Positions 12,399 through 17,270 of a stretch of DNA of 64,000 bases are shown one piece after another. This DNA is from Arcobacter nitrofigilis DSM 7299. Its GTDB lineage: Bacteria > Campylobacterota > Campylobacteria > Campylobacterales > Arcobacteraceae. Numbering within the stretch: position 1 is the first letter of the stretch; every line of letters begins with the position of its first letter. Where the stretch lies: assembly GCF_000092245.1 (NCBI RefSeq), contig NC_014166.1:2728001-2792000 (forward strand). Direction: 5' to 3'. The notes beneath the pieces were generated by a model. That model was not told the origin of the DNA. It ran no database searches and saw only the letters and a program-made list of their open reading frames with translations. The translations under genes and the position numbers were made by a program.

Positions 12399-12944
12399 TT
12401 AATCAGAAACTATCTCTGAACAACTTACCATCTTCGCATAAGTACCTTCAAGTGCTGCCATAAAAGAGTTATGTACTGATTTTGCAGGAACAATTTCTCC
12501 TAAAAATTCTAAATCTCTTGTCGTACAAGCGTCATGAACAACTGTACAACCATATCCCATATCACTAGCAGCTCTAGTCGTGGCATCTACACACATATGA
12601 CTCATCATTCCACATATTACTAACTCTTTTATTTCTCTTATTTGTAACTCATACTCTAAAGATGTATCTAAAAAACTATTTGGAAAGTTTTTTTCTATAA
12701 TTGTCTCATCTTCCCGTGGATTTAGATTTTCATGTATCTTCATTCCATACGTATCTGGTAAAAAGAATGTTGCTCCTTCATATAAACTTGTATGTTGTAC
12801 ATGAAGTACTGGCATTTTTTTCTCTCTAAAATATTCTAATAACTCTTTTGCTTTTAAACTTGCCTCTTGGGCACCTACTAATTCGCAAGCTCCACCTTCA
12901 AAATAATCATTTTGAATATCTATAATTACCAATGCTTTACTCAT
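12399..12944 (-). CDS. Isochorismatase-family cysteine hydrolase
   Basis: 181 residues. The catalytic Asp is in VIIDIQNDYF near the N-terminus, and the nucleophile Cys is in GMMSHMCVDATTRAA with a cis-peptide-type MM preceding it. HDACTTRDLEFLG is also typical. Members hydrolyse amides or enol ethers (nicotinamide, isochorismate, ureidoacrylate and others), and the substrate here is not evident. Last gene of a four-gene operon, 10 bases after the dehydrogenase gene, behind the TetR-type promoter at 15.7 kb. The FMN riboswitch begins just downstream. Confidence 0.88.
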   Translation of the reverse strand: MSKALVIIDIQNDYFEGGACELVGAQEASLKAKELLEYFREKKMPVLHVQHTSLYEGATFFLPDTYGMKIHENLNPREDETIIEKNFPNSFLDTSLEYELQIREIKELVICGMMSHMCVDATTRAASDMGYGCTVVHDACTTRDLEFLGEIVPAKSVHNSFMAALEGTYAKMVSCSEIVSD

Positions 12945-12954
12945 CTTTTCTCCT

Positions 12955-13884
12955 TTATTTATTTAAAAAATCTTTTATATTTTGTGCAACTTTTTTCATA
13001 AGTCTATTTCTTGATTCACTTGAGCCCCAACCAATATGTGGAGTTAAAAGTAGTCTTTCTTTATTTACAACTTTTAATAATGGATTAGTACGCTCAATTG
13101 GCTCTTTTGCAAATACATCAATACCACAATAAATTTTTTCTTCATCTATAATTTTAGCTAAATCATCTTCATTTATGATTCCACCACGACCAAGATTTAA
13201 TAAAATAGCACCTTTTTTTATATTTTTCATATTCTCATAAGTCAATAAATTTTTTGTATTTTCATTTAAAGGCGCATGGACAGATATAATATCGCAGCTT
13301 TGTAAAAGCTCGTCTAGTTCAACTCTTTTATAGTTTGAATTAGAGTTTTTTCCACTAGTTGAATAATAAACAACTTCACAACCAAAAGCCTCTACTTTTT
13401 TTGCTAAGTCAACTCCAATATCACCAAAGCCTATAATCCCTACTCTTTTTTTATCCAATTCAAAAAAGATATCATCTGCATCATTGAAAGCTGGTACTTT
13501 TCCCCAATTTCCATTATTAAGATACTCTTGATAATAATTTAATTTTTGAATAAAATAAAATATCATCCCAAAAGTAACTTGAACTACACTAGAAGTAGAA
13601 TATCCAGCTACATTTTTCACTTCTATATTTTTACTTTTTGCATACTCTAAATCAATATTATCAGTTCCCGTTGCCGTTATACAAATAAGTTTTATAGAAG
13701 AATCATCCATTTGTTCTTTTCCCAAAACTACTTTATTTGTAATAACTATATCTGCATCTTTTGTTCTCTCTTTTGACTCTTTTTCACTTGTTGTAGTATA
13801 AGATACAACTTCCCCAAACTCTTTAAAAATATCTATATTTATATCTGATCCTAATGTTGCTCTATCTAAAATAACTATTTTCAT
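12955..13884 (-). CDS. D-isomer-specific 2-hydroxyacid dehydrogenase
   Basis: 309 residues. NAD-binding Rossmann motif VGIIGFGDIGVDLAKK, then HAPLNENTKNLL, NLGRGGIINEDDL and the catalytic His in LLTPHIGWGSSESR. The catalytic Arg lies in the loop preceding GIDVFAKEP. It would interconvert a 2-keto acid and a D-2-hydroxy acid with NAD(P)H (hydroxypyruvate or glycerate dehydrogenase type). Its start overlaps the stop of the upstream EamA gene by four bases. Operon context with two exporters and a hydrolase suggests detoxification or metabolite removal, but this is inference. Confidence 0.9.
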   Translation of the reverse strand: MKIVILDRATLGSDINIDIFKEFGEVVSYTTTSEKESKERTKDADIVITNKVVLGKEQMDDSSIKLICITATGTDNIDLEYAKSKNIEVKNVAGYSTSSVVQVTFGMIFYFIQKLNYYQEYLNNGNWGKVPAFNDADDIFFELDKKRVGIIGFGDIGVDLAKKVEAFGCEVVYYSTSGKNSNSNYKRVELDELLQSCDIISVHAPLNENTKNLLTYENMKNIKKGAILLNLGRGGIINEDDLAKIIDEEKIYCGIDVFAKEPIERTNPLLKVVNKERLLLTPHIGWGSSESRNRLMKKVAQNIKDFLNK

Positions 13885-14756
13885 TTTATTCCTTTCTTCT
13901 TTTTATTTATTAATACTATTCCAATTATTATAGTAAATATTCCTATGATTTCGCTAAATTCTATTTTGTCACCCAATAAAAAATATGAAACAATAGCAGC
14001 ACTAACGGGTACCAAATAAAAAATCGAAGATACCTTTGAAACCTCTCCATTTTTTATCATAATATATAAAAGTGACAAGGCACCAATACTCACTCCAACT
14101 GTCATATAAAGTAAAGCAATACTAAAATGAATATTCCAATTTATATGAGAATCTTCAAAAAGCAAAAATGGTAAAACTAAAATTGTGGAACTAAAAGTCT
14201 GTATTGCACCACCAGAATAAAGATTCATATGAGAACAATACTTTTTTTGATACAAACTTCCAATACTAAGACCCAATAATGAGATAAAAGCCCAAAACAG
14301 ACCAAGAGAGGAAAAGGAAGTTTCAAGTTTTGAAAAAACCACAAAACCTACTCCCACAAATCCTATTATTAGTCCTGCCCAAACTCTTATGTTAATATCT
14401 TCATTTAACAATTTTAAGGCTAAAACAGTTACAACAATTGGTTGTAAAGCTATTATCAAAGCATTTGTTGCCCCAGATATACCATAACTAACGGCTAAAA
14501 ATCCTCCTATTGAAAATGTTCCAACAGTTAAACTTCCAGCAATGGCTATATGGAAAACTTCTTTTTTAGTTTTTGGCATTGGTAGTTTAAATATAATAGT
14601 AATCAAAAATAAGATACAAAAAGCAATAAAAAACCGTACTTCTAAAAATGCCATTGGAGATGCATTTTGTAAACCATATTCACAAAAAATAAATCCACTT
14701 CCATATAAGAACATGAAAAAAAATGGCAAAATAGATTTTTGTATATAAAATTTCAT
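13881..14756 (-). CDS. EamA/DMT-family transporter, copy 2
   Basis: 291 residues, ten predicted membrane helices in two EamA repeats, starting with FFFMFLYGSGFIFCEYGL. Conserved family segments include the GISGATNALIIALQPIVV helix and GLIIGFVGVGFVVF. The C-terminal tail INKKKKGIK is basic and cytoplasmic. It is clearly paralogous to the protein encoded immediately upstream (shared YQKKYCS(H/N)MNL and VSKVSS(I/L)FYL segments). The pair may work as a heterodimer or reflect recent duplication. Probably a metabolite exporter; substrate unknown. Confidence 0.88.
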   Translation of the reverse strand: MKFYIQKSILPFFFMFLYGSGFIFCEYGLQNASPMAFLEVRFFIAFCILFLITIIFKLPMPKTKKEVFHIAIAGSLTVGTFSIGGFLAVSYGISGATNALIIALQPIVVTVLALKLLNEDINIRVWAGLIIGFVGVGFVVFSKLETSFSSLGLFWAFISLLGLSIGSLYQKKYCSHMNLYSGGAIQTFSSTILVLPFLLFEDSHINWNIHFSIALLYMTVGVSIGALSLLYIMIKNGEVSKVSSIFYLVPVSAAIVSYFLLGDKIEFSEIIGIFTIIIGIVLINKKKKGIK

Positions 14757-14758
14757 AC

Positions 14759-15652
14759 TTAGCCTTTATTTAATATAGTTTGAACTTGCTGTTTTTTATT
14801 AATCAAATTCATAGCAATAAGTACAATAACAATTCCTACAAACACATTTAACTCTAAATCTTTATTCAACACAAAATAAGCAATTATTGATGAGGAAACA
14901 GGTAAAAGGTAAAACAGTGAAGATACTTTTGACACCTCTTTATGTCTAATCATATAGTACAATAAAGACATAACTCCAATACTTACAACAACTGACATAT
15001 ATACTAAAGCAATAATAAATTCTGTAGTAAAATTAACTCTTATATCTTCAAAGTATAATAAGGGTAAAACAATAATTGCAGATGCAAAAGTCTGAATCAC
15101 TCCTCCTGTGACCAAATTCATATTTGAGCAATATTTTTTTTGATACAAACTTCCAAAGCTTCTACCTATTAAACCTAATATAGCTAATAAAACAGCTATT
15201 AATTGATTTTTATTAATTTCTCCATCAAGCCCTAAAACAAGAGCTACTCCAATAAATCCTAAAATTAATCCAATCCATGCTCTTTTACTTACATTTTCAT
15301 CTAAAAATTTCATAGCAAAAAATGAAACTACAATAGGCTGTAAAGATATAATCAATGAAAAAAAAGCAGGTGATAATCCATAGTTTATTGAATTAAAACT
15401 ACCTATAGAAAAAAGTCCTGAAGATAAAATTCCAGCAATACTTATATGAAAAATATCATTTAAATTTTTTGGAAATTTCATTTTAAATATAAATGCAATA
15501 AGTAGCAAAATAACAAAAGCAACTATATATCGTAATTCTAGAAAAACCATACTACTAGAATATTCTAAGCCCACTTTTATGCATACAAACCCAGAACCAG
15601 ATAGTATAATAAAAACAAGTGGTACAACATAAGGTTTTACTATTTTTAACAT
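14759..15652 (-). CDS. EamA/DMT-family transporter, copy 1
   Basis: 297 residues with ten hydrophobic helices and two EamA domains; SLIISLQPIVVSFFAMKFL and GLILGFIGVALVLGL are the conserved pieces. First gene of the TetR-controlled operon; the next EamA gene starts two bases after its stop. Its ribosome binding site AAGGAG lies in one arm of a 28-base palindrome directly before the ATG, so translation as well as transcription may be controlled there. Confidence 0.88.
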   Translation of the reverse strand: MLKIVKPYVVPLVFIILSGSGFVCIKVGLEYSSSMVFLELRYIVAFVILLLIAFIFKMKFPKNLNDIFHISIAGILSSGLFSIGSFNSINYGLSPAFFSLIISLQPIVVSFFAMKFLDENVSKRAWIGLILGFIGVALVLGLDGEINKNQLIAVLLAILGLIGRSFGSLYQKKYCSNMNLVTGGVIQTFASAIIVLPLLYFEDIRVNFTTEFIIALVYMSVVVSIGVMSLLYYMIRHKEVSKVSSLFYLLPVSSSIIAYFVLNKDLELNVFVGIVIVLIAMNLINKKQQVQTILNKG

Positions 15653-15655
15653 TTT

Positions 15656-15683
15656 TTCTCCTTGACTATTTAGTCAAGGAGAA
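15656..15683 (-). promoter_or_regulatory. TetR-type operator 1 overlapping the ribosome binding site
   Basis: Palindrome with 13-base arms (TTCTCCTTGACTA / TAGTCAAGGAGAA) separated by two bases, lying between the -10 box and the start codon of the first EamA gene. The core CTTGACTA/TAGTCAAG matches operator 2. In RNA the same sequence would form a hairpin burying the AAGGAG ribosome binding site. Confidence 0.75.
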
Positions 15684-15712
15684 GTATAGCAAAGTCTTGA
15701 CTATATAGTCAA
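15683..15712 (-). promoter_or_regulatory. Sigma70-type promoter of the EamA operon
   Basis: On the minus strand TTGACT (15712-15707) and TATACT (15688-15683) are separated by 18 bases. The -35 hexamer lies inside operator 2 and the -10 abuts operator 1, so repressor bound at either site would block RNA polymerase. Confidence 0.75.
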
Positions 15713-15715
15713 GAC
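15694..15715 (-). promoter_or_regulatory. TetR-type operator 2 overlapping the -35 box
   Basis: Perfect 22-base palindrome with half-site GTCTTGACTAT and its reverse complement. It shares the core CTTGACTA with operator 1 and lies 10 bases past the tetR stop codon. Spacing and symmetry fit a TetR dimer site. Confidence 0.78.
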
Positions 15716-15724
15716 TTTTGAAAC

Positions 15725-16291
15725 TTATTTTTTGAGTTTATTTAAAAAGAATTCTAATTGGAAAAGACAGTCTCGAAAAACTCGACCATCTTGAGATTTT
15801 TTTGCAGTTCCTAAACACCCTTCAAGTGAAGCTACGATAAAAATAGACATGTTTTTTGTATCTTGGCAATCTATCTCATTTTTTAATACTGCTTTATCTA
15901 ATACTTGTTTGATAATACTTTCAAAGTGAAGATATACATACTCTAAAGCCTCTTTAAAATCTTTATCCTTATAAGAGAGTTCTTGAACCAAATTATTAAG
16001 TTTGCATCCAAAATTAAAATCAAAGCCTTTTCTATCTTTTAAATAAGTTATCAACTCATCAATTATATTTTCTTCATATTCTAATAAATTACCATATTTC
16101 ATATCTATATATGAATAGATTCTCTCTTTTATAACTGCAAGAGCTAGCTCTTTTTTTGACTTAAAGAAGTGGTACATACTTCCTTTATTCATATTTGCTT
16201 GTTTTAAAATTTTGTCAACCGAAGTTGCATGATAGCCATTATGATATATTTCATCATAAGCTACATCTAAAAGTTTTTCTCTACTGTTCAT
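15725..16291 (-). CDS. TetR/AcrR-family transcriptional repressor
   Basis: 188 residues from the ATG at 16291 (MNSREKLLDVAYDEIYHNGY), the usual TetR N-terminus. A longer in-frame start at 16324 would overlap the upstream gene and add atypical residues. The HTH is YHATSVDKILKQANMNKGSMYHFFKSKKEL. The C-terminal helical domain resembles the TetR_C group found in YcdC/AcrR-like proteins. Two near-identical palindromes lie between its stop codon and the EamA operon promoter, so it very probably represses the four downstream genes. It starts one base after the HTH regulator's stop and is probably co-transcribed with it. Confidence 0.92.
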   Translation of the reverse strand: MNSREKLLDVAYDEIYHNGYHATSVDKILKQANMNKGSMYHFFKSKKELALAVIKERIYSYIDMKYGNLLEYEENIIDELITYLKDRKGFDFNFGCKLNNLVQELSYKDKDFKEALEYVYLHFESIIKQVLDKAVLKNEIDCQDTKNMSIFIVASLEGCLGTAKKSQDGRVFRDCLFQLEFFLNKLKK

Positions 16292-16292
16292 T

Positions 16293-17270
16293 TTAATTTC
16301 TTCTTTGCCCAGGCTTTGGTTCACTTACCTCTTTTTGTAAGTCCACACTTAGATTATTATAAAACAATTCACCATAATCTGTCAATCTATTTATTGTCTC
16401 ATATGCTTGTTTTATATCATTATTATATTTTAAAGCATCTTGCAAAATTTTTATAATTTTAACTGATTCTAAAAAGTTTACATGGCTAGGTGCTTCAATA
16501 GGAGAAGAATAATACTTATGCATACGCTCTACTAAGTTTTTATTTCTGATTTCAATAAAAACTGACTCAATTGGAGATTTGAAAAAAAGTACCTTTTGTT
16601 TAACATTGATAGAGATATAAGTTGTCTCCATACCATATATTTTTCGTGAAAAAGAATCAAACAAAAATAGCTTTTTATTGTAGTTATTATTAAACAATTC
16701 ATAAATAAGTTCAAGTATTTTTATCTTCTCTTCTTTTGTATAAAAGTTCCCAATACTTGCAAAACAAAATGAAAGAATAGACTTTATAGAGTACCACTCA
16801 GTTGTATCATAATCATATCTAAGCATTTGATTTATTCTATTTTGTTTAAGCATTTCTATTTCTGAACTTGTTTGAGTTCTATATGTTCTTTTTACTGCTG
16901 TATCTCTATACATAGGTCCTGGAAATTGTGCTTGAATTACAAATCTTCTATTCTCTTCTATTTCCATTATATATCTCATTCTTCCACAATAATCTTCATC
17001 GATTATTCTTACTTCTTTTTGTGGAATTTGAGTGATTGACTTTATAAATTCTTCATCATTACAAGCCTCTTCCCAAATATAATCTGGATATCTAAACAAT
17101 GCACAAATTTTATCTTTAACACTTGTTGATGGTTCAACATCTGTTACTCTATCAACCCAAGAAGTAACTGTTCTTCTATCTTTTTGAATTAATGATGCAA
17201 ATTTTGATATACTTAAATTAGATCTTTTATATATCTCTATTAGTTTATCTATACTTGTTTTATAAGACAT
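16293..17270 (-). CDS. Helix-turn-helix regulator divergent from the methylcitrate operon
   Basis: 325 residues. Residues about 1-50 hold an HTH resembling XRE or phage-repressor types (LSISKFASLIQKDRRTVTSWVDRV). The remainder (about 90-325) is of no family I recognise; it is mixed alpha/beta with several aromatic-rich segments (FVIQAQFPGPMYRDTAVK, LFLFDSFSRKIYGM). It lacks the sigma54-activation domain of classical PrpR and is not GntR-like. It is transcribed away from prpB across a 176-base gap containing repeated TTRTACAA motifs, so it is the best candidate for the propionate/methylcitrate regulator here. Function inferred from position only. Confidence 0.7.
   Translation of the reverse strand: MSYKTSIDKLIEIYKRSNLSISKFASLIQKDRRTVTSWVDRVTDVEPSTSVKDKICALFRYPDYIWEEACNDEEFIKSITQIPQKEVRIIDEDYCGRMRYIMEIEENRRFVIQAQFPGPMYRDTAVKRTYRTQTSSEIEMLKQNRINQMLRYDYDTTEWYSIKSILSFCFASIGNFYTKEEKIKILELIYELFNNNYNKKLFLFDSFSRKIYGMETTYISINVKQKVLFFKSPIESVFIEIRNKNLVERMHKYYSSPIEAPSHVNFLESVKIIKILQDALKYNNDIKQAYETINRLTDYGELFYNNLSVDLQKEVSEPKPGQRRN

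Follow-up and report, generated by a model that had tools for sequence, protein, structure and literature searches.

The 72 nt that separate the stop codon of a tetR gene from the ATG of the first of two exporter genes in Arcobacter nitrofigilis DSM 7299 contain two palindromes, O1 and O2, which share one 16-bp core (minus strand). Judged from the sequence of the locus and of its relatives, they very probably serve as a pair of operators for the TetR repressor encoded immediately upstream, which would occlude the extended -10 promoter located between them. The features of this region are collected in Table 1, numbered according to their position in the window, i.e., the entire 64,000-nucleotide stretch of DNA that was analyzed.

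Table 1. Features of the tetR-exporter region, with positions in the window
Feature	Position	Strand	Description	Proposed role
O1, candidate operator 1	15691-15718	-	Perfect 28-bp palindrome, 14-base arms, 0 spacer; 16-bp core at 15697-15712	
O2, candidate operator 2	15656-15683	-	13-base perfect arms, 2-nt centre; core at 15662-15677	
TTGACT, -35-like hexamer	15707-15712	-	Within the O1 core	
Extended -10, TGCTATACT	15683-15691	-	TATACT 18 nt after TTGACT; -10 at 15688-15683	
Predicted transcription start	15674-15676	-	Within the 5' arm of O2; inferred, 7-9 nt past the -10	
AAGGAG Shine-Dalgarno	15663-15658	-	Inside O2; two bases common to the O2 core	
tetR gene	15725-16291	-	188 aa; TetR_N helix-turn-helix and LmrA/YxaF-like C-terminal domain	Presumed repressor
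EamA-family exporter gene 1	14759-15652	-	PF00892, E 4.6e-32	First gene of the putatively regulated operon
EamA-family exporter gene 2	13881-14756	-	PF00892, E 9.1e-34	
D-2-hydroxyacid dehydrogenase gene	12955-13884	-	NF006263, 444.6 bits (cut-off 389)	
Isochorismatase-fold hydrolase gene	12399-12944	-	PF00857, E 2e-36	

The genes of the locus are arranged on a single strand, with tetR upstream, followed by the two EamA exporters (the ATG of the first, at 15652-15650, lies downstream of the AAGGAG), the dehydrogenase and the hydrolase. The dehydrogenase gene shares 4 nt with the gene before it, and both it and the hydrolase gene probably belong to the same operon as the exporters. The tetR product scored above the curated cut-offs of Pfam PF00440 (TetR_N; E 3.8e-14, 52.6 bits, cut-off 24) and of PF21993 (the LmrA/YxaF-like C-terminal domain, TetR_C_13_2; E 2.1e-8, 34.8 bits, cut-off 27), and the relatives fetched with it were Arcobacter, Malaciobacter and related records. 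Its gene is probably transcribed from a perfect (12/12) sigma70 consensus, TTGACA-18-TATAAT, located at 16385-16356 on the minus strand, 94 nt 5' of the tetR ATG and within the terminal part of the ORF that precedes tetR; the match is likewise 12/12 in one congener (G032) and 11/12 in G033. The ORF directly upstream of tetR (325 aa; 16293-17270, minus strand) gave no match in Pfam or NCBIfam, and in several relatives a coding sequence resembling its C-terminus also precedes tetR.

Perfect arms of at least 13 bases were found five times in the window, O1 and O2 included, versus a mean of 0.0 in 20 randomizations of the same 64 kb by a first-order Markov model. A preliminary description of this DNA had reported two palindromes with a common core, and both are indeed present, with cores that are conserved in relatives. 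The second of them, with 13-base arms that include the AAGGAG of the first exporter gene, was borne out; the first, described as a perfect 22-mer over the -35 box, is perfect and has TTGACT in its core, but its length is 28 bp. The probability that the palindromes are products of chance, or terminators and nothing else, is close to nil. Elsewhere in the window, some long inverted repeats may be terminators, to judge from their location, but arms of this length do not arise in Markov sequence, a terminator scan found no terminator-like tail, and the deep conservation of the cores and their spacing already refutes such a reading.

In the 3.19-Mb genome, TTGACTANNTAGTCAA has exactly three occurrences, two of which constitute the O1/O2 locus. 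The long-core pattern CTTGACTANNNNNNTAGTCAAG, whose gap length is not that of the sites, had no matches genome-wide. The third exact copy, TTGACTAAATAGTCAA, is located elsewhere, at position 1001-1016 of locus L114 (G000:C1:1406045-1408060), just 5' of an ORF identified as cupin-like by reading of the sequence, and a LysE-like exporter ORF is divergent from the latter. The cupin-like gene is likely a further member of the regulon.

The distribution of the operator pair was analyzed within the context of the TetR relatives. At a threshold of E <= 1e-20, relatives of the protein were present in 53 of the 104 genomes of the family, and most of the orthologous loci have two cores downstream of the tetR stop codon. 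The two-site pattern, defined as TTGACYRNNYRGTCAA-N15-24-TTGACYRNNYRGTCAA, was detected in 27 of the 104 family genomes and, at the level of the class, in 28 of 397 genomes, with two other families represented, while the reversed pattern, used as a control, gave no match in the same family and class searches. Within the family, the paired cores were confined to genomes with a TetR match (27 of 53, versus none of the 51 without; Fisher p = 1.8e-10). In total, 59 loci were collected from the Arcobacteraceae and two further families of the Campylobacterales, with TTGACYRNNYRGTCAA pairs positioned around a -10 box, and the distance between the two sites was 33-35 bp in 51 of the 55 loci that have both. 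In the other families, tetR is usually divergent from an isochorismatase gene or another target gene, and the operator pair lies in between. The adjacent pair is absent in some orthologs (L058, L060), and one good site stands alone in L046 and L056.

In a few cases, the operator changes along with the recognition helix. The proteins of L049 and L054 carry the helix NASKSSMYY rather than NMNKGSMYH, and their loci contain TGGACTANN-type sites in pairs, at a distance of 35-36 bp. In L063/L064, whose TetR proteins are more distant (49% identity), a different, TTGACCTTAAGGTCAA-like palindrome is found, likewise before a transporter-like gene. The assignment of the palindromes as TetR operators, made in the preliminary description, is hence supported by conservation, by spacing, by co-occurrence with the TetR protein and by covariation of helix and operator.

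Loci with 33-bp spacing possess a third copy of the operator, about 37-40 bp further on. In L040, L048, L055, L082 and L113, this copy is followed by a strongly hydrophobic ORF of about 30 aa, e.g., MKKIIGIVIFGFSMATLLVMMYTPGSIFYS, which may encode a small membrane protein.

The best-supported promoter element is the extended -10, TGCTATACT. The corresponding pattern, TGNT[AT]NNNT, precedes O2 in 46 of the 59 loci, and the -10 ends 3-5 nt (in one case 7) before O2. The sigma70 promoters of Campylobacter jejuni similarly feature an extended -10, TGxTATAAT, without a clear -35 box (PMC3656092). The TTGACT hexamer may be nothing more than operator sequence, since the same letters recur in the core of O2. 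The strong promoter formerly placed between the palindromes is retained with respect to its extended -10; its putative -35 box is accounted for by the operator, although it may serve as a -35 as well.

From this arrangement we infer a likely mechanism, in which two TetR dimers block the extended -10 promoter. In the ligand-free state, one dimer would occupy O1, covering the -35 and spacer region, and another would occupy O2, covering the transcription start, such that the promoter lying between them would be closed. A ligand, probably a toxic metabolite or an electrophile, would release TetR. Transcription from the freed promoter would then begin within O2 and produce an mRNA with a leader of only about 23-25 nt, in which the 5' half of the O2 palindrome would be missing and the AAGGAG would be accessible. 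According to this scheme, the contact between the Shine-Dalgarno sequence and the operator would reflect the shortness of the leader, and not a need to hide the ribosome-binding site.

The preliminary description had also proposed that the same element acts as an RNA hairpin that limits translation, so that O2 would work as an operator in the DNA and would also mask the AAGGAG as a hairpin in the mRNA of the operon itself. The complete O2 palindrome does fold strongly (-17.9 kcal/mol, z -7.1) and, if transcribed, would fully mask the AAGGAG. However, the predicted start lies inside its 5' arm; from there the RNA would fold at a mere -3 to -4 kcal/mol with a stem of 4-5 bp, and the Shine-Dalgarno would be unpaired at about 0.73, versus 0.00 in read-through RNA. 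The anti-Shine-Dalgarno segment (15681-15676) is at or upstream of the predicted +1 (~15675), and the masking bases would consequently not be transcribed from this promoter, owing to its predicted start within the arm.

Comparison of the loci points in the same direction. The operator-AAGG(A/G)G junction of the window, with its two-base overlap, recurs in 16 loci, several of them from another family. Among these, the outer arms were paired in 65.6% of cases versus 62.2% in shuffles (31/500), and slid versions scored about equally on covariation. The extended arm is absent from the congeners L024 and L027. At least three Watson-Crick pairs outside the O2 core were observed only in the window, L039, L046, L056, L063/L064 and L099, and in L046, L056 and L099 the Shine-Dalgarno sits further downstream of O2. 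Half-site variants at core positions 6/11 of O2 broke the RNA pairing in six loci and kept it in four; this lack of clear bias is as expected for DNA recognition. Core positions 7/10 were dropped as evidence of RNA pairing, since a centre of 2 nt precludes this pair in RNA. With the predicted start in the arm and the O2 outer arms at chance level, two layers of repression are unsupported for the native mRNA. The hairpin is probably missing from it, and a dual role of this kind is very improbable. Conservation of the arms in relatives was partial: the 16-bp cores are kept and the outer arms of O1 covary, as described below, but relatives do not retain the arm of O2 with which the Shine-Dalgarno would pair.

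The full -17.9 kcal/mol hairpin could, according to the folding predictions, form only in transcripts that run through from tetR, and the two-layer idea is at best a local feature of such read-through RNA. O2 would then mask the Shine-Dalgarno solely in the long tetR transcripts, while those from the internal promoter would lack the 5' arm and be translated. Read-through is plausible, given that tetR is co-directional and preceded by a 12/12 consensus promoter; the folding predictions for the window have the Shine-Dalgarno completely paired in the long RNA and accessible in the short one, masking is also predicted in L039 and L050, and gene e of phage T4 provides a precedent (PMC3014915). Nevertheless, conservation of the masking arm does not extend across the genus. 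Moreover, among the 16 loci in which the Shine-Dalgarno abuts the operator, its masking in long transcripts did not differ between co-directional loci and the rest (Mann-Whitney p 0.87), although the latter are mostly divergent, an arrangement in which read-through from tetR would not occur. Insulation against read-through is an unlikely function of O2.

The outer arms of O1 presented an unexpected covariation, which hints that the upstream mRNA ends in a hairpin. Among co-directional loci whose sites are spaced 35-37 bp apart, pairing was seen in 85.8% of the outer-arm cells, versus 76.0% in shuffles; double-change cells numbered 11 versus 3.1, and the covariation score was reached by none of 500 shuffles, although these counts are inflated by the relatedness of the sequences. 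The pairs GTC/GAC, ATC/GAT, CAC/GTG, AAC/GTT and ATA/TAT occur in scattered parts of the TetR tree, and the arms are essentially absent in divergent loci. In L112, where the upstream co-directional gene is unrelated to tetR, the O1 arms comprise six pairs, counting G-U. Besides acting as an operator, O1 may form a hairpin in the 3'-terminal part of the tetR mRNA that terminates transcription weakly or protects the 3' end, a tentative proposal that we consider somewhat doubtful and that is compatible with the two-site operator explanation. On the other hand, a good U-tract is lacking, co-directional loci whose spacing is 33 bp do not have the arms, such that orientation and spacing are confounded, and template switching during replication, which perfects palindromes, could also yield symmetric arms. 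As a terminator proper, O1 was discarded on the basis of the negative terminator scan, while the covariation leaves room for a hairpin role. The covarying arms constitute a small, testable puzzle.

The two RNA proposals can be combined, with O1 ending or insulating the tetR transcript, O2 hiding the ribosome-binding site of the exporter in read-through RNA, and the internal promoter providing a short, translatable mRNA. This combination seems improbable; if true, repression would act on initiation as well as on leakage from the co-directional tetR.

Among known systems, the leaders of T4 gene e (lysozyme) and I-TevI have their promoter in the 5' arm of a palindrome, and the ribosome-binding site is hidden in long transcripts and not in short ones (PMC3014915). 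The present locus resembles that of gene e in its palindromic leader, and the position of its -10 predicts a start that would lie within the 5' arm. It differs in that the 5' arm is here primarily a repressor operator. Comparison of the O2 loci also revealed no masking hairpin that is kept in relatives. As a general check on claims of operators that hide a ribosome-binding site, the start site should be located first, because an operator positioned on the +1 loses half of its palindrome from the mRNA.

The best-scoring NCBIfam model for the protein was that of AcuR, the acrylate utilisation regulator (82.9 bits, E 1.8e-23), a score far under its curated equivalog cut-off of 247, and identity with AcuR was rejected on the basis of this model. 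The operator of RutR is TTGACCANNTGGTCAA, which resembles the C variant of the O1/O2 core; the RutR model, however, gave 24.4 bits versus an equivalog cut-off of 368, and this identity was rejected as well. In the literature searched, no description was found of this TetR operator motif or promoter architecture, nor anything relevant on TTGACTA operators, on the sequence of the RutR operator, on operators of the LmrA/YxaF type, on TetR regulators of Arcobacter or on TetR sites that overlap a Shine-Dalgarno sequence.

The locus is very probably an ordinary two-site repressor switch. Its analysis defines an operator motif and the promoter layout of a TetR regulator found widely across the Arcobacteraceae, with counterparts in other Campylobacterales, and whose targets include EamA exporters and isochorismatase-fold enzymes. 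The system is similar to the LmrA/YxaF-type TetR repressors, which share the TetR_N and TetR_C_13_2 domains and have palindromic operators overlapping the promoter of adjacent efflux or detoxification genes. It differs from them in its operator core, TTGACYRNNYRGTCAA, and in the position of the repressor gene, which lies upstream, in the orientation of its target, and is separated from the latter by both operators.
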